From positions 2,976,001 to 3,040,000 of the forward strand of contig OX596334.1 of the NCBI GenBank assembly GCA_951394405.1: a stretch of DNA of 64,000 nt, in the 5' to 3' direction. The position numbers were made by a program, and so were the translations under genes. The notes beneath the pieces were generated by a model, which saw only the letters and a list, made by a program, of their open reading frames with translations, did not search any database and was not told the DNA's origin. The stretch comes from Coprinellus micaceus. Its lineage: Eukaryota > Basidiomycota > Agaricomycetes > Agaricales > Psathyrellaceae. Positions 14,986 through 24,783 of this stretch are shown here, one piece after another (positions within the stretch are counted from its first letter, which is position 1; every line of letters begins with the position of its first letter).

Positions 14986-16023
14986 TGACCTGGTTCAAAG
15001 TCATGGTTGCTCGGTTGCAAGTGCCTGCTACCATAAGACACTGGGTCTCAGGTGGGAAACCTTGAGCGAAGGGAAGGATGACAGAAGGGACAGGGTGTCG
15101 TCTATGGATCAGTGTGGGTGGTGGTGGAGCCATCAATCTCTCCTTCACCTCCAACCACCACCTTGCTGGCACCATGGTTGTGTGCTCAGTCCTCTGGTCT
15201 CAGCTGTCTGTATTTTCTTTTGTACATGCCCATCCATTGAACAAGAAATTGTTTCTAAGCCACCCAGAGAAGCAACACATAATTTTCATGGCCAGTGAAG
15301 ATGGCAAGCATTCAACGAGACCCCACTTGGGATGAAATGCCGGACTTTTGAGTCAGGAATTCACCAAAACCCTCACAGCACTGGTGACTGAGCCCCAGTG
15401 AAAGTGCTGGGTGCCCAGAAAAACTCACAGCCAATCTCAGCCAGACAATTGATCGGTTTGCTGGGGGTTTGGGTGCCATTCACCTGGGTATCAAAAGGGG
15501 GAAAGGGAGGGAAACAGAATTCCGGCACCACACGGTGCCGAAAATGGGAGGAATGCCCCTGAGATCGCCCACGCTCTGAGAGTATTGAAGTAGTTGGTAG
15601 GTATTATAGATATAGTAATACACGTCTATGGTCCCTGCCCATTGTGCGAGCATTTGCGTCCTCTGTCAACTCCTTCACACTCCCTATATCGGCTGCACCA
15701 TTTGCATGGAACTGTACATTGAACAGGACACGTCACACCTGTCAATGTTGCTGTTACCAACACAAGTTGCTTGGCCACAGCGCCGGCAGGACTTAAGCTT
15801 TTGACACTTTTGAGCACCAGTGGCTGGGGTGGTTGTAAACAAGCCACTGCATGAGCAAGAATGGCGATCTTACAAAACCACTGCATCAGGAGGGTGGTTT
15901 GTTAACAAATGCCCTGCAGGGTTGCTGCAGGTGTCCGCCGGCTTTACTATTGATTTGTCTCGTACCCTTCCGTTTCGGGGTGACCACCTACGGCGACGCG
16001 ATCAAATACGCTGTCACTCCCTA
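14986..16023. other. Non-coding, repeat-like region with a Cys-rich coding remnant
   Basis: No intact gene. CGGCACC...GGTGCCG at about 15524-15541 forms a small hairpin. On the minus strand at about 15725-15800 a broken frame reads CQKLKSCRRCGQATCVG, a cysteine pattern like zinc-binding tails of fungal transposon proteins; too little remains to name the source. This stretch adjoins the left inverted repeat of the RecQ/DUF6589 island and may belong to it. Confidence 0.35.
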
Positions 16024-16063
16024 CAACGTCTGGTGCGTTTGACCCCTGTGACACTACCACCCG
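16024..16063 (+). repeat. Left 40-nt inverted repeat of RecQ/DUF6589 island
   Basis: The 40 nt beginning CAACGTCTGGTGCGTTTGAC match perfectly, in opposite orientation, the sequence at 21889-21928. Similarity stops on the inner side after CCACCCG. The outer side cannot be compared because the right copy reaches the assembly gap two bases later. Confidence 0.85.
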
Positions 16064-16315
16064 CCCCTTTGAAGCCAAGCAACCGCGCCAGCGTTCGATC
16101 CCCGGTCGAGGCAACCTTTTTCTTATTCTTTGTGGGCCTAATGGCGGCGTAACATCAGTTCTCGTCAGGCGGGTTTCTACCTTTCAGTAGTGCAGATAGT
16201 GTATAATATCAATGAATCCCTGAGAGGAACTTCCAGAGGTCTGAGACATGGGGGGACTGGAGTGTCACTTTATTCCTCTAAATGAGACAAATTGAATAAC
16301 CTCCCTCCTACAACG

Positions 16316-19143
16316 ATGTCGGACCCAACCAACACTGCGAACACAATGGAATCGTACCAATCTATCTACTCAGACGACGACCGATCCGATGCCGGCTCAC
16401 AGGAGGGGTCCGACATCTCAAACCCGGGGTCACCAGTCAGATTCGCGTCACCCGAGCCAGACTTGAGAGCGAAGGCGGACATGGACCTATCTCGCAGGTC
16501 AACAGCATTGAAGAAGAGTAAATTGACCCCAGAAAAAACTCTTGAGGGCATCAAGGCAACCATCAACACCATGACCGAGCACGGAATTGACTTGCCCATT
16601 TTCCTAGAAGGTGTCAGTTGGGGCAGCCCAGAAGCCACCAGGGATGTCGACATCAAGCACCAAAGAACGACCTTTCTGCACAGCAAGGAGCTTCCAGAGA
16701 TCCTGAAGAAGTGGCATAAACCACCCCGATCCTTGGCAGGGATGAAGCGCCCAGCAGGCGCTAAGGCCGCGACGGAGGCGTTCGCCGTTGAGACAACCAC
16801 GGAGATTATCACACGTGAGCTCAAGGTACTCGGGCCACTCCTCAGGCTCCCTGCTGGGAAGGATGTGGATACGGAGGAGTTGACGAAGCTGAAGATTGCG
16901 GACATCGCAGGGTTGATGCAGTCAAACGCGCCCGTCCTCTGGAGGATCCTCAACGATGCCCTCTCCACAAACACTGAGAATCAGAAGGACCACGAGAAGG
17001 TATTGTATCATTTTTGCGAATGGGAAGAAGCATGCGCTCACTTGCCGTTAGGTCATGTTGACCGTTGTTTCCATCCTGTGCTACCGCCGATCCCACCACT
17101 CCAATCTCCTCCCAAAAATCCTCTCAATCTACCTCAAGTTCCGTGGGGTCTCAGCCAAGGGTTTCGACACGCTTCATATACTTGGGCTTGTTATGAGCCA
17201 CAAGTGGGCATGTGAGGTGGTGGATCGGATGTCGAAGCAGGCCAGGGACGAGGTTCTACGGAAGATGGAGGAGTTTCCGTGGGTGATTTCGTACGACAAC
17301 GTGAACATACCTTTCCGAGTCTTTTCTCAGCGGGTGGACAACCAAAGCCAGCTGGGGCATGGGACAGCAGCGACAGTCTATATTCAGCGGGATGCGGCAC
17401 AGCTATCAGAAGGGATGAATCAGCTACTGAAGGAGCAGAGGGCCAAAGGTATCAAGAATCCACTCACGGCACTGGACATAATGGACCTCGATATCAAATC
17501 TGGGGCGCGAATTGAGGAGCAAATGAAGTATGTCGTTCTGCGGACGCTCCTGGACAGCCAAGAATTCGACGTGAAGACATATTCCGAGAAGGACTCGGCA
17601 ACCCTATCACCTCCGACACCCGTCGACCAGCTACCTAACGGGCCAGAACACGTCACTCTTCAATATCTTCTTGGAACAGTCAATATTCCAGAGGTTAGCT
17701 ATGAGGATAACAGTCGCCTCGTAAATGAATGGCTCAGCCAACTCGGATTCAACACCCTGGCGGACAAGGTTAAGCTTGCCACCAAGAAAATCGTCACCTG
17801 GGTTGGTGACCAACTCACCGTTGACCGCCTCCGCCGCCTTTTTGTATTCCGGGCTGATGAAGACAACTCCTTCGACCGCCTCGACTTTTCAAACTACATT
17901 TTCGGGTGGTTGCACCTGCAGATGGCAGACGCAAACTCGTTGCACAAGCAGTACTTGGGCACTAAAGGGGGGCGCGGTCTAGCACAGGCCTTTGAGTTGT
18001 TGGGGAAGAAGAAATTGGATAACGTGCGTACTCAAGGGCCCTTCCATCATGATCTCGTCGAGGCGATCTATGAGGTTGCCGAAGCACACATGCGGGAGGA
18101 TTGGTTGGGTGTTGCGGGCGTTGGCTCACTTGCCGACTTGCGAGGCTGTTCAGCTGTTCAGCTGAAGGGGTATGCTGCCGAGATCATGGAGACAAGGGCA
18201 TCATCTGGAGCACTCGATGCGATGGATGCTTCCCCCAACCCTGACGCGCAGCGCCGACAGGTGATGATGTGGTGTCGAGATGCCCTTCACTTCATTGTGC
18301 TCGATCAAGCGGTGAAGAGTGGTGACGTTGGTATGTTGGAGAAGATGCTACCAAGCCTCTTGTTCCGATTTGTGGGGGGAGGGAATGGGAAGTATGCTGT
18401 GGAAGTGTTAGAGTTGATGCAGGGCTTGTATCGCGAGTGGCCTGAGGAGCTTGCGTAAGTGAAACAGTCGTTATTTGGAGAACGGGACTTACAGATGAGA
18501 TAGGGATTTCGTTCGCCACCACTGCTGGCTCGTTAACTTCTCTGGAAAGGCCAACACCTGGTGCCCAATTGACAAGGCGCAGGAAATGAATATCAAGGAC
18601 ATCAAGGTCACATACCGCTCAGAAGGCCCAAATATCAAGTGGCCGTACCTCAGAAGACTTCATCCCGCCATCCCCATCATTCGAAATGTCATTAACTTTG
18701 TTGAAGCGCAATTCGGTACTCTAGTGTGAGGGAAGAAACATACCGTCCCCAGTAGGGAGAAGGACATTGAGAAGTTGCGGAAGAGCTATGCTACGGCACA
18801 GCTTCACCATGTTCAGGCCGGTCGGAAGACCTGGAGCAACAAGAAGGATCAGGCCAGAGACTTCATCAGCGAGGGCGCCTACAAGGTATGTGCGACTCAC
18901 CTGTTGTCAAGGTGGGATAGCGGGCGTGCATTCGAAAGGTCACTCGCCGAGGAGTGGTCAGATTCTGATGAGGAAGGATCTGCGGAGGGTGCAGCCAGCG
19001 GCGAGGGTGCAGCAATTCCTACTGAGGATGATGCCATGCTCGAGAGCCTTCCAAACCGCCCCCGCACCACGAATGGATCATCTGCAAGTGAGCAGAATGG
19101 GTCGTCCGGAGTAGTAGATGAGGCGCCGATGGAAACTGATTGA
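16316..19143 (+). pseudogene. DUF6589-domain protein, interrupted by one in-frame TGA
   Basis: Three exons, 16316-16999, 17052-18454 and 18504-19143, keep one frame of about 908 codons, broken only by TGA at 18727-18729 (codon 771). The N-terminal third is acidic then helical. The middle carries the DUF6589 signature: ISILCYRRSHHSN-like start, WVISYDNVNIPF, later WVGDQLTVDRL and a FGWLHLQMADAN segment. After the TGA the frame continues with GKKHTVPSREKDIEKL, which resembles the G-KH--P--EKDI continuation of other family members, so the stop looks like a mutation rather than the real end. The YDN and GDQLT acidic positions recall a DDE-type nuclease core (hypothesis). The last 70 codons are acidic and low-complexity. 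Confidence 0.7.
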
Positions 19144-21741
19144 CCAGGTTGTTTTCGAGCCGTAGGGCGTGCTGGAATCCTAACCTTTATGGGGCTGGTG
19201 GTGGGTGGAGAGGGAGGTTCGGTAGCGCTGGCCAAAGGAACTGCATTCTCCTTGCCAGTTTTCCTGCGGCGGCGGGACTGCTTCTGTGGGGTAGATGTTG
19301 TGGGTAGGGTAACCTTGAACTAAACACACAGATGTATCATGCCATTAGTATGGGGTCTGAATCATGAACAAGCCCGCGTACCAGAGGTTGAATGCTGAAC
19401 ATTGGAGGCGCTTCAGTCGGCGGACACCATGGTGTAGGACTGGAGCTCGAATCAAACTCAAGGAAACCGAGCGCAGCTCGCTCAGCTTGTTGCTGCTCTT
19501 CAAGTGCCTGCTTTTCCTGAGCCGCAGCGTCCCGCACCTCCTTCGCCCTCTGATCCTTCTCCCACTTCTCCCGTTTTCGCTCCTCTGCAGCTGCCCGCTT
19601 CGTCTCAGCTGTTTGATGTGCCTTTTGAAGTCGAGCACGCTTCACCGCATCCCTTGCCTCTTCAACCTCCCTGTCCAATGCTCGGACAACCTCCAACGCC
19701 TTATCGAACAGTGTGGTATAGGCCGTTCCCTCACCGGCACCTGCTCTATTGCTGTCAGACTCAACTACCTCCTCACAAGAAACCCTCCGCATGCCAAACA
19801 CCCATGGCAATCCCGCGGTGTCCTCGAGATGTTGTAGAGTTTCGATGTTGATGTTTGAGGCGAGGGCGTTGAGAAGTCGGTCTGGGAAGATGACAGATGC
19901 AATGAATGAAGTTGGGGGCATGTAGCGAGACTTAGCGAGAAAGCGAAACTTGATTAGTGCATCCTTCGCGCTCTGTAGGCGCTCTTTCTGTCTCTTCTTT
20001 GCCTTCGATGGCTCGGGCTTCTCAGCGGTGTCGTCGAAAAGCGGGTGTGGTTTCGGACACATCGGCCTTTTGCCATTTTTGTTGGGGGAGCCTGGGGCAC
20101 TGCCAGGAGGGGACGTTGGGTGCTCAGGGGTCTGTGGTCGTGGTGGAATGGGTGGTTGAGATGGTGGATTTTGGGCATGGTGCTCTCCGCTGCAGTTGTC
20201 ACAGCAAGCACCAGTCACATCTAGATACACTTAGACGATTGTGGTGAAAGGGGACATATATAAGATGGCTTGCCTTTCCTTGTCCATGGCGGGCACCCAA
20301 AATAATCATCAGCTACGTCTCGCCGACAGCTCCCTGTCTCAATCCAAAGCCTCAACGCATCCTCAACCTTCTTCCTGTACTCTGTTGTTGTCTCGTCTCC
20401 CTCATCCTCTAAACCCCCAGGGTCATCCTCTTCTTCGGCATGCTTAACAACCTGGAATACGGACGGCTCTACAAGCAAGATGGCACGGGCCTGGATAGCT
20501 CTTGATCGTCCTGCCCGTCCAGCGCGTTGCATCCATACTGTAAGCGAGTTGGGGACGCCGAGTTGTAGCACCTGCTCAATATCAGGGATGTCGGCGCCCT
20601 GCATGCGGAGAGTTAACAGCCTGAAGCATAAATGAAAACATATTCCTTACCATGCCAGCAGCCTCAGTCGCAATCAGTACCCGAATGTCGCCCCTCTTCA
20701 ACTTCTTCATCACCCTTCGTTTGGATCGACATGTGCGGAGTGAGTGAAGGACGTCAACGTAGGGTCGCAGGTGGACTGGTAGCTGGGCCTTGATGAACCG
20801 CGCACATTTCTGGGCGGAGACGACCGAGTTGACAAAGACGATCGTCTTTTTGAGGTCGGAGGAGAACACGGGGGCACCATCAGTTTTCTTGATGAGAGGG
20901 AGGATGGCGTCGTAGTCGGTAGGTGATTTAACATGCTGGACTGACATGGTGACATTTGGGCGGTCGTTCCCAAGGTTCAGGAAGAACAACTTGTCAAGCT
21001 GGATGTTCAGGTTGGTTTGAATGTCACGAAGGGCGGCGGGCGTCAACGTTGCAGATGCAACTAAGAATGGGACACTAGTGGGGAAAAAGGCGCGGAGACG
21101 GTCGAGGTTGGCATAGTCTTTGCGGAATTCACCGCCCCATTGCGAGATGCAGTGCGCCTCATCGACTACAATCATGGAGATCTCTTGGGCTAAGGAAGCC
21201 TCGCTGAGGTAGGCACGGAACTCTGGGTGCTGGAGACACATCTCTGGAGATGCGAAGATGGCTTGAATTTGCCCATTTTCGAGCATCTAAACCCAGTGAG
21301 TGGGACGTAGAGTAGAGGATATACACGACACACCCTTTTCAGCTTGGGAGACCAAGTGTCTCCATTCACAGCAGCCGCTTCGATCCCCATCTCCTTGAAT
21401 CTCCTGACCTGATCCTCCTGCAAGACCTTCAGAGGGGAGAGAATGAGAGCCTTATGCTTCTTATTCCTCAGAAGTGGGAGCATGTAAGGGATAGTCTTGC
21501 CCTCTCCCGTTCCCGCGATCAGGATTGTATCGAGCTCCAAGCAAACCGCTTCACCAACGTCCAGCTGCCAGCTGCGTGCAGGTGCCCCGAAGCCCTCCTC
21601 GAACTTCTTTCCCATGAGCGCCCGGTCTTCGAGAGAATCGTAGCCATCTTCCCCCTTCGCCTCGCGAGCTGCTTGAAGATTCTTGTAGCTCAATTCTTTC
21701 GAGCATTGGTGGGTGCTGGCGGTAATCGGTGTATTCGACAT
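18897..21741 (-). CDS. RecQ-family DNA helicase
   Basis: Five minus-strand exons, 21741-21334, 21286-20651, 20598-20274, 20220-19382 and 19319-18897, close in phase to about 876 residues with no stop. The superfamily 2 helicase core is complete: motif 0 (WQLDVGEAVCLELD), Walker A AGTGEGKT, VVDEAHCISQWG (DEAH box), VASATL, IVFVNS, EAAGMGADIPD and QRAGRAGR. A RecQ-type zinc cluster follows (CRRDVADDYFGC, then CCDNC), spanning an intron with a GC donor at 20273. The C-terminal third is a charged coiled coil (ERKREKWEKDQRAKEV) and a Ser/Pro-rich tail. The last exon overlaps the 3' end of the DUF6589 gene on the other strand; if its splice is not used, translation would stop at 19337. There is no HRDC domain. 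Confidence 0.85.
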
Positions 21742-21888
21742 GGTGACATGACGGTACAGGGGTGTAAGAAATGATCATTTTAAAGAGAAATAGCCGATCA
21801 CGCATTGAATCGGTGGTGGTGGTGGTGATAAACGAAGGAGAGCGCGACGCGTTGGTCACGTTTGGCTGGCGCTGGAGCGTGACTGTGA

Positions 21889-21928
21889 CGGGTGGTAGTG
21901 TCACAGGGGTCAAACGCACCAGACGTTG
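21889..21928 (-). repeat. Right 40-nt inverted repeat of RecQ/DUF6589 island
   Basis: Reverse complement of 16024-16063, 40 of 40 matching by eye. It ends two bases before the N gap. Confidence 0.85.
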
Positions 21929-21930
21929 GT

Positions 21931-22130
21931 NNNNNNNNNNNNNNNNNNNNNNNNNNNNNNNNNNNNNNNNNNNNNNNNNNNNNNNNNNNNNNNNNNNNNN
22001 NNNNNNNNNNNNNNNNNNNNNNNNNNNNNNNNNNNNNNNNNNNNNNNNNNNNNNNNNNNNNNNNNNNNNNNNNNNNNNNNNNNNNNNNNNNNNNNNNNNN
22101 NNNNNNNNNNNNNNNNNNNNNNNNNNNNNN
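21931..22130. other. Assembly gap (200 N)
   Basis: Exactly 200 Ns, likely a placeholder of unknown true length. It separates the RecQ island from AT-richer sequence and hides the outer side of the right inverted repeat. Confidence 0.99.
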
Positions 22131-23856
22131 GGCCTTGGAAAGTATAAATGGGACATGAATCTGGGCATATTACAAAAGACTGTAAAGAAAACGGACCACA
22201 CACTCAAAAGATATGGGAGAAACAGTCACTTTGCAACAAGACATTACAGAAGTACTAGGATCCACTACTCAAAGTCAGCCAAAACCTGGTACACCTTCCA
22301 TATCTTTGCAACCCCTCATCCGTTTTCCTTCCTGTTTTTTGATTTCCATTCTATTTCTTTGTCTTGTTTCATTCCCCATAAGTGGCAACTTTCCCACAGT
22401 TGACTTCCTCCTGATTTGGCACAAACACTGGTATTGCCTATGCAATTATGCTCCTATCCCCTTGTTGTGCTTCCAGTTTCAAGTTTGGAGTGAAGATGCA
22501 TTATGGTATAGTGTATGAGGTATGTAAGCATCATTTAAACAGCTAACATCATCCAGGAGGGGCCTGGATCATTGGTGAGTTGGACACCATGGTGATGATT
22601 CTGTGACTAATGCACAATTTGGGCTATTTGGTATTGATTAGAAGGGGATGGAGAGGTATGGGATTGTGCATTGGGTAGTATTTGTTGGTAATATTAAGTC
22701 CCACAAAGTAATTGGATCAAATATTGTATATTACAAGCAAAAGGTGACCTCGCACAGTGGCATTTCAAGTGATTTGAATAGTTTACATTATTATATTGCA
22801 GGAATTGAACGATTTAGCAAATAGTGAGAGGATATGGAAAGCCCCAATTCAATGCTTTCTAATGATACCTAAATCTTCCTTATCAGGCCACAACCCATAG
22901 AGATAGAGAGCAACGAGTATTGCTTGCCCTTATCTAAATGAGTGTGATGTCATTTGATGGACACAATCTGTCCATCAAATCTGGTACCTGTGATGTCATT
23001 TGATGGACAGATTATGTCCCATCAAATCTGGTACCTGTTCCTGAGATCTGTGATGTCATTTAATGGCAAGGCTATCTGCCATCAAATCTGGTACCTGTGC
23101 CTGAGATCTGGTATACATGACATCACCTTCCTAATGTAGTTCCAGGCACAGATGATGTCATGGCTGGACATGTCCAGCAGCTGGATCAGATCCAGATGGA
23201 TAGATCCAATCCTGGATGGACCCACTGGACCCACTGGACCCAGAATGGACCAGAACCAGGCAGGGGCTGGACAGATCCAGGTAGGGTTCAACACTTAGGT
23301 ACTGGGCCTGATAACATATTCATATGCATTTCTTGATCTAAAGATTCTGACCTTTTTGTACAAAATTATAATATCACATCTAACCCAAATACAGTGTGAG
23401 TGAAGCAAGGAGGTGGTGTGCTGTTAGCATGGGCATAAGCAGCATGCCATTTAGCCCAAAATCCCAAATGATTTTTTTTATTACAAAAAAAAAGCCCCAC
23501 CTGGTGATGAACAGTGGCCTGGGTAGACACAGTACCTGTAAAACAGCAGGCCTGACCAGTAGGCAGGCAAAATGCAGGCTGCTGGACCGTGGGAAAAAAC
23601 TGCTCCACCAGGACCCCAAACACCCCATCACTCTCAGTGTGACAGTGTGACAAATGGACCAGATCCATGTGGACAGGACCAGAGCCAATGGACCATGGAC
23701 CTGGACACCAGATGGATACTGGATCCAAGAGCAGGACCAGTCCAAGGCTGGACCTGGATGAGAAGGGCTGGATCTGTCCAGGGTAGGCCTTCTGCTTAGG
23801 TAGTGGATCCTGCAACATATTCATACCTAAGGGGTAGGTGGGTCCATGTGACTGAG
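22131..23856. repeat. AT-richer non-coding repeat region
   Basis: No gene. At about 22139-22185 a decayed frame reads GHESGHITKDC, the end of a CCHC zinc knuckle (gag-like remnant). At 22840-22955 lies a module shared with 58420-58530 and 59960-60075. From about 22945 to 23100 three palindromic units follow. Two copies of a TGGACC/GGATCC-rich sequence, each ending in a CAACATATTCATAC-like tail, occur at about 23160-23330 and 23650-23830. The region appears to be worn non-autonomous element(s) related to the 2.7-kb element at 57929. Confidence 0.5.
22944..23100. repeat. Three palindromic tandem units
   Basis: Each unit reads TGATGTCATTTGATGGACA, a short loop, then the complement CCATCAAAT followed by CTGGTACCTG. 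The first unit forms a 12-bp stem with a 5-nt loop; the third has TTAATGGCA/TGCCATCAA. They resemble tandem hairpins within a non-autonomous element. Confidence 0.6.
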
Positions 23857-24783
23857 GTGTACAAAGAGAGCGCGAGTGTCACTAACTAAGTACTACAGCA
23901 TTTATGAGAAGTGAAATTTTGACGATTTGGAGACGCCCAGCGCTTGAGGTCTTACCCCCAACCAGCAGACAGACAATGAGAGGCCTTGCGGTACTAACAG
24001 ATCGGTATATTGAGTCGGCATTCCCACCCAGTCCAGTCCAATCCCCACCAGTACCAGTCCACCACAAGGTGTTATGGGCCCCAGGGGCACACCTTGCCTG
24101 CCCCCAAACGGTGTCCCTCACGGTAGCCGCGCTTCGGGTACCCCTCATCCGCATCAGTTGCAAGGACTGACACGTCAGGGTACCTACCCAGCTCCCTTCA
24201 CGCGAGACCTTTAACCAGCAGGGGCCAGTCCAAACCAAATGAGGCCGCGTCCTCTCAACCATCCCCCTGTGGGGTGTATTGGAACCTGAAGGCGAAGGCC
24301 TTTGGGTTGTCCTCTAAAAACCAAACGAGTTCTCGCACAAAGCGGGGATCCCGATCGTATGTTTGCAGCACTCCGCACTGCGTAAAGATATGGTGACGAG
24401 TTTGCACCGGACAGCCGCATTCACATTCGTGATTGTCATGGCCAGGTATGCGGAACCGGGAGTAGTACTCTCCAGTAGGCGCGTGGTTGAGAATGGCTCT
24501 GCACATGCGTGCACAAAGCGCATTACTCTCATTTACATGTCGGAGCCATACTCCCCCATTGGAGTATGTCTGACAAGTTGGCTTCCCCTTGGGGTCACGC
24601 AGCACCATGAATTGGTGCCCTAGATAATCTGGATTGCGTGCCTGAGTAGCCCACGCGTCCAGGGCGGAGTCGGCAACATGCTTGCGCACGCTATCGAGAG
24701 AAGTAGCGGGTCTCACTCCTGCAGGAGTGGGAGGGAGGCTCTGCGCGTGCAGATGAGCACGATGTTGAAGACCCCACTTCAAC
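23857..24783 (-). mobile_element. LINE-A fragment (A0), 3' end only
   Basis: Minus-strand 3' part of the LINE-A family. It codes for the end of ORF2 (24255-24782, KWGLQHRAHLHAQSLPPTP to the terminal QYTPQGDG) and about 400 bp of 3' UTR with the family's TAGTACTTAGTTAGTGAC segment. The distal 3' end and tail are missing. On its other side it abuts a plus-strand LINE-B fragment, so the junction is a rearrangement or a twin-priming-like product. Confidence 0.8.

Follow-up and report, generated by a model that had tools for sequence, protein, structure and literature searches.

Within the 64,000-nucleotide window (the whole stretch of Coprinellus micaceus DNA that was analyzed), two inverted arms of 40 nt each, at 16024-16063 and 21889-21928, are 100% complementary and enclose two genes lying tail to tail. 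One, on the forward strand, encodes a DUF6589 protein (PF20231), and the other, on the reverse strand, encodes a RecQ-type helicase. The first-pass annotation of the interval 16024..21930 had described the perfect repeat and the convergent gene pair in the same terms, and we find both as stated. The DUF6589 gene comprises exon 1 (16316..16999; matched by an alignment profile of its relatives with E 6.8e-44), exon 2 (17052..18454; PF20231, E 2e-82), and exon 3 (18504..19143), with putative splice sites; with the exons joined as presumed, the Pfam match to PF20231 reaches E 4.5e-110. In exon 3, the codon at 18727-18729 is an in-frame stop; downstream of it, the frame remains open as far as the stop at 19141-19143. 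Because of this interruption the window copy may be inactive. Open DUF6589 frames are present in other copies of the element, while the copy at C9 has one stop in DUF6589 exon 2.

The helicase gene (19337..21741, reverse strand) has about four exons with approximate splice sites. Pfam recognizes DEAD (E 4.8e-25) and Helicase_C (E 9.6e-19) domains in its product, and the best match among solved structures is RecQ (E 2.3e-39). On the same strand, we assign what we take to be Walker A (21493-21513), DEAH (21137-21166), SAT (21038-21058), and QRAGRAGR (20506-20529) motifs, followed by the cysteine motif of a C-terminal cysteine cluster (20192-20206) and a charged C-terminal part (19337-20191). At the cysteine cluster, the RecQ zinc-binding domain scores 17.4 bits, below the Pfam cut-off of 25.

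Three further features were seen to the right of the gene pair. Imperfect tandem copies with a unit of about 60 nt occupy 22943-23100. A reverse-strand frame at 24255-24782 has no Pfam match and, by eye, closely resembles part of the frame L027:3183-4256, which lies beside the DUF6589 locus at C12:2108937. A forward-strand frame at 24969-25667 matches the endonuclease/reverse transcriptase domain PF14529 (E 6.6e-7), for which reason a LINE-type element probably lies in this part of the window.

Conservation and relatives of the DUF6589 protein

The first-pass annotation had singled out the acidic positions of YDN and GDQLT in the DUF6589 protein, and these prove almost invariant, together with a later Glu. 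Conservation was counted over 256 alignment rows from 240 database proteins chosen by homology, with gapped rows left out at each position. D310 (17295-17297) is kept in 232 of 235 rows, D481 (17808-17810) in 237 of 238, and E679 (18402-18404) in 238 of 239, and His516 (17913-17915) is invariant (239 of 239); all four lie in exon 2. Rows from the window's own genome, which include some overlapping loci, give 15/16, 18/18, 16/18, and 18/18 for the same D, D, E, and H. Since the rows were selected by homology and several other acidic positions are conserved as strongly as the chosen three, D310, D481, and E679 are put forward as a candidate catalytic triad of a DDE-type transposase. Searches of solved structures returned nothing meaningful, either with exon 2 of the window copy (best E 1) or with a DUF6589 profile built from an alignment of 64 sequences (best E 0.43). 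A Pfam scan of ten DUF6589 proteins, at E values up to 1, found no KDZ domain and no other transposase family; besides DUF6589, it reported three non-transposase families, each singly and weakly.

Three database searches for relatives of the DUF6589 protein gave at least 308, at least 390, and at least 179 matches, sets whose overlap was left uncounted. Judged by their names, the named relatives among the best 120 of the 308, 390, and 179 matches appear to come from mushroom-forming fungi, in a word-based type of search that would miss distant relatives. A scan of viral contigs with the DUF6589 alignment found no relative. DUF6589 also occurs in animal genomes.

Both genes were compared between copies using pN/pS, because synonymous sites are near saturation. 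Between the window and C9 copies, DUF6589 exon 2 has pS 0.683 and pN 0.072 over 465 codons (pN/pS about 0.11), and two helicase exons have pS 0.697 and 0.607 and pN 0.102 and 0.096 over 135 and 212 codons (pN/pS 0.15-0.16). Between the window and C8 copies, pN/pS is 0.26-0.28. These ratios indicate purifying selection on both DUF6589 and the helicase.

Terminal repeats and target-site duplications define a mobile element

We searched the fungal genome (50.3 Mb, 17 contigs) with 16024..21930 and recovered related copies at C9 and C8, a shortened copy at C12, and a short copy at C10. The C9 copy is 77% and 72% identical to the window interval over two stretches, and both the C9 and C8 copies carry the two genes in the same convergent arrangement as the window. 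Similarity among the copies continues beyond the 40-nt arms, up to a common outer end TTGTCTC, which rules out the 40-nt repeat as the element terminus. The arms are the inner portion of a terminal inverted repeat of ~110 nt. The left terminal repeat spans 15955..16063 on the forward strand, with outer end TTGTCTCGTACCC, and contains the left arm. As a 109-nt query, it shows 89-91% identity over 101-107 nt to the C12, C9, C10, and C8 copies at their left ends, and the outer ends of these copies are set by target duplications. Compared with this left end of the window element, the right ends of other copies show 76-77% identity.

The window element therefore exceeds the interval first reported: the 40-nt repeat does bracket the genes but the left end of the element is at 15955 and the right end lies beyond 21930, inside a run of N at 21931-22130. 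What can be seen of the right terminal repeat (21889..21930) is its inner portion, the 40-nt arm plus 2 nt, and the N run covers the outer right end and its flank; judging from other copies, the end is expected near 21997. The 8 bp on the left flank, CTATTGAT (15947..15954, forward strand), are predicted from the 8-bp duplications of other copies to recur after the right end. The N run abutting the right terminal repeat is exactly 200 long and may mark a place where the assembly broke at an inverted repeat.

The terminal 21-mer, allowing two or fewer mismatches, has 34 matches in the genome, compared with 0 for the reversed control. We examined target duplications in 22 regions, consisting of 18 small regions picked from these matches and four longer copies. 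A script pattern recognized two ends in 13 of the 22 and one end in the other 9. Exact 8-bp direct repeats flank 12 of the 13 two-ended copies, and all 12 sequences are different. As a cross-control, every left flank among the 13 copies was set against the right flanks of all other copies in this set, and 0 of 156 comparisons matched. The sole exception (L077) has two ends but no duplication. One region scored as one-ended by the script (L067) has a second, altered end, detected by a terminal-repeat match, and its flanks agree at 7 of 8 positions. The element in the window is thus a genuine mobile element, as had been proposed from the window alone.

Eight of the 12 duplicated copies are miniatures of 70-132 bp, and the others measure 812, 1702, 6053, and 6287 bp. 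The first-pass annotation had taken widespread copies of the repeat without the genes to speak against its reading. Such copies do occur, but they are short, and the gene-free miniatures share the 8-bp duplications of the gene-bearing copies, as expected of non-autonomous derivatives. The 70-bp copy at L064:49-118 (C4:590418-590487), with an exact 8-bp duplication, contains little beyond its two terminal repeats and offers a hint of the smallest substrate needed by the transposase.

The gene pair recurs across the genome

Searching the genome with PF20231 gave 25 matches, which we assigned to 15 loci. At 14 of the 15, the DUF6589 gene has a RecQ-like helicase next to it, convergent at 13 and head-to-head at one, and this linkage extends to loci with DUF6589 of only about 20% identity. 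Recurrence of the pair, on which the first-pass annotation had staked its proposal, was checked in the window's genome and is borne out there. Two of the 13 convergent pairs are weaker calls: the helicase at C12:2108937 was identified from a motif recognized by eye and that at C11:2784177 from a match of E 1.3e-4 plus a motif. At C6:2536032, no helicase was seen within a flank of ~1.3-1.5 kb on each side. The only head-to-head arrangement seen pairs a helicase at C11:414637-415563 (reverse strand) with a DUF6589 gene at C11:417644-418998 (forward strand).

Nine of the 25 RecQ matches in the genome sit away from DUF6589 loci, as expected of host helicases. RecQ-like matches at C10:11754, C10:2812736, C9:23150, C9:3020431, C6:88543, and C6:4080229 are 25-28% identical to the element helicase and are situated no more than about 90 kb from a contig end; these may be subtelomeric helicases.

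Several of the other DUF6589-RecQ loci are elements of sibling families. Two sibling copies at C4, 5.9 kb each and 99.86% identical, begin with TAGAC; one is flanked by a 9-bp duplication (TGTGACACG) and the other by a 10-bp duplication (CCCAGTCACC). Duplications of 9 bp also flank the elements at C9:2866362-2872553, C7:289833-296073, and C8:1558350-1564155, bringing the sibling elements of other families to five, with duplications of 9, 9, 9, 9, and 10 bp. For the element at C11:1217614-1223561, the duplication can be read as 8 or 9 bp, and at C11:845385-851829, an inverted repeat is present and the apparent duplication is a palindrome, which we left uncounted. Element ends were sought at C1:2907541 and C11:417644 and were not found; the loci at C12:2108937, C6:2536032, and C11:2784177 fell outside the end analysis. 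DEAD and Helicase_C domains are also present in the helicases of the siblings at C8 and C4. One gene pair in one genome is thus associated with duplications of 8, 9, or 10 bp.

Discussion

The AcademH DNA transposons, reportedly the subject of Kojima 2020 (Mob DNA 11:15), offer the closest comparison, which we made by published description. In the portions of the literature available, AcademH is a helicase-encoding DNA transposon with target duplications of 9 or 10 bp, whereas AcademX has duplications of 3 or 4 bp, and duplication length in Academ is linked to whether the partner enzyme is a helicase or a nuclease (PMC10045372). The helicase domains listed as coming from AcademH, KolobokH, or Helitron include Helicase_C and DEAD, and AcademH is described as low-copy in Basidiomycota, Ascomycota, and Mucoromycota (PMC10799480). 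On these descriptions, both are DNA transposons of low copy number in Basidiomycota, the window element and its C8 and C4 siblings encode an SF2 helicase with DEAD plus Helicase_C, and the 9- and 10-bp duplications of the siblings match the printed AcademH lengths. The window family differs in duplication length, which is 8 bp (12 of 13 copies) and so outside the printed 9-10 bp. AcademH is reported from animals as well as fungi (PMC10045372, PMC10799480, as far as their available text goes), whereas the named DUF6589 relatives, among the best 120 of the 308, 390, and 179 matches, appear by name to come from mushroom-forming fungi, in a search that would miss distant relatives. We consider it quite likely that the element is an AcademH-type class II DNA transposon of an 8-bp-duplication lineage, with DUF6589 as its transposase and RecQ as its partner. 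Because the window family departs from the printed 9-10 bp feature, we stop short of classing it as an ordinary AcademH member; it is probably a variant lineage. The statement of the first-pass annotation that the element is undescribed, with no named element having this pair, is probably wrong, given that AcademH is published and the siblings show the 9- and 10-bp duplications ascribed to it in the accessible descriptions.

Other known systems share single features with the element. Zisupton and Dileera (with Kyakuja, the KDZ group) have 8-bp duplications and occur in fungi (PMC12730594), as does the window family, but the KDZ domain was not found in ten DUF6589 proteins, and a helicase partner is not among the features described for these elements in the part of that source available. 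RecQ-like helicases are also reported in part of the text on fungal subtelomeres (PMC5576322). Our element likewise has a RecQ-type helicase, but here the gene sits inside an interstitial transposon with defined ends. KolobokH resembles the element in being a fungal DNA transposon, a Kolobok lineage limited to fungi and carrying a RecQ helicase in the partial account available (PMC9587614). The same account gives Kolobok TTAA target duplications and a C/DxxH motif found in the group. Here, the duplications vary in sequence and measure 8, 9, or 10 bp, and the residue three before the invariant His of DUF6589, the one His examined, is Gly, Ala, Arg, or Ser in 239 of 239 database rows, so the motif is absent at this position. 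We therefore give KolobokH identity a negligible probability, and the varied duplications in place of TTAA rule it out.

An equally negligible probability attaches to the idea that nothing here moves, and that a host gene pair is simply part of a segmental duplication or flanked by chance repeats. The window copy by itself, with its right end hidden and a stop in DUF6589, could give that impression. Exact target duplications in 12 of the 13 two-ended copies argue against it, and chance repeats or a fixed host gene pair are ruled out by the related copies and their exact duplications, with none of the 156 cross-comparisons matching. A more substantial rival, though one we think improbable, is that DUF6589 alone moves the element and that RecQ is cargo, a captured gene with a benefit of its own. 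Because miniatures lacking both genes also move and carry 8-bp duplications, the helicase gene is not required in cis, which favors the cargo reading. Against this stand the RecQ-like gene at 14 of 15 DUF6589 loci, some with DUF6589 only about 20% identical, and purifying selection on the helicase, where cargo would be expected to vary; the helicase has been kept together with DUF6589 over long times.

We are similarly doubtful of a separate, unnamed superfamily in which the DUF6589 transposase is unrelated to Academ and acquired its RecQ-type helicase independently. Such a superfamily, just as doubtfully, would be marked by an obligate transposase-helicase partnership and by a duplication length of 8, 9, or 10 bp set per lineage. 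The 8-bp duplications of the window family speak for it, as does the joining of helicases to DNA transposons more than once, in KolobokH and AcademH, as described in the excerpts cited above. Published literature searched by name likewise gave no occurrence of DUF6589, with papers mentioning PF20231 unrelated judging by title, and nothing naming a DUF6589 and RecQ pair or a RecQ in an Agaricomycetes transposon with terminal inverted repeats. The duplications of the siblings (9, 9, 9, 9, and 10 bp) nevertheless coincide with the AcademH lengths in the available part of PMC10045372, which weighs against a separate origin.

Returning to the AcademH-type reading, we propose that the DUF6589 transposase would recognize the ~110-nt terminal repeats, cut at the TTGTCTC ends, and join these to a target cut with an 8-bp stagger; the ends and duplications are observed, and the recognition and catalysis are presumed. 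The RecQ-type helicase on the opposite strand, linked to DUF6589 and under purifying selection, would be a maintained partner whose probable role is unwinding or remodeling, either of the element ends or of the target or a repair intermediate. The gene-free copies of 70-132 bp, whose structure and duplications match, would be mobilized in trans by these proteins.

DUF6589 is entered in Pfam without a known function. Its placement within exact-ended elements flanked by duplications makes these genes transposon genes for annotation and makes DUF6589 a candidate transposase for testing. Since duplication length varies (8, 9, and 10 bp) while the helicase partner is constant, the idea that length is tied to the partner enzyme, as set out in the available text of PMC10045372, becomes directly testable.
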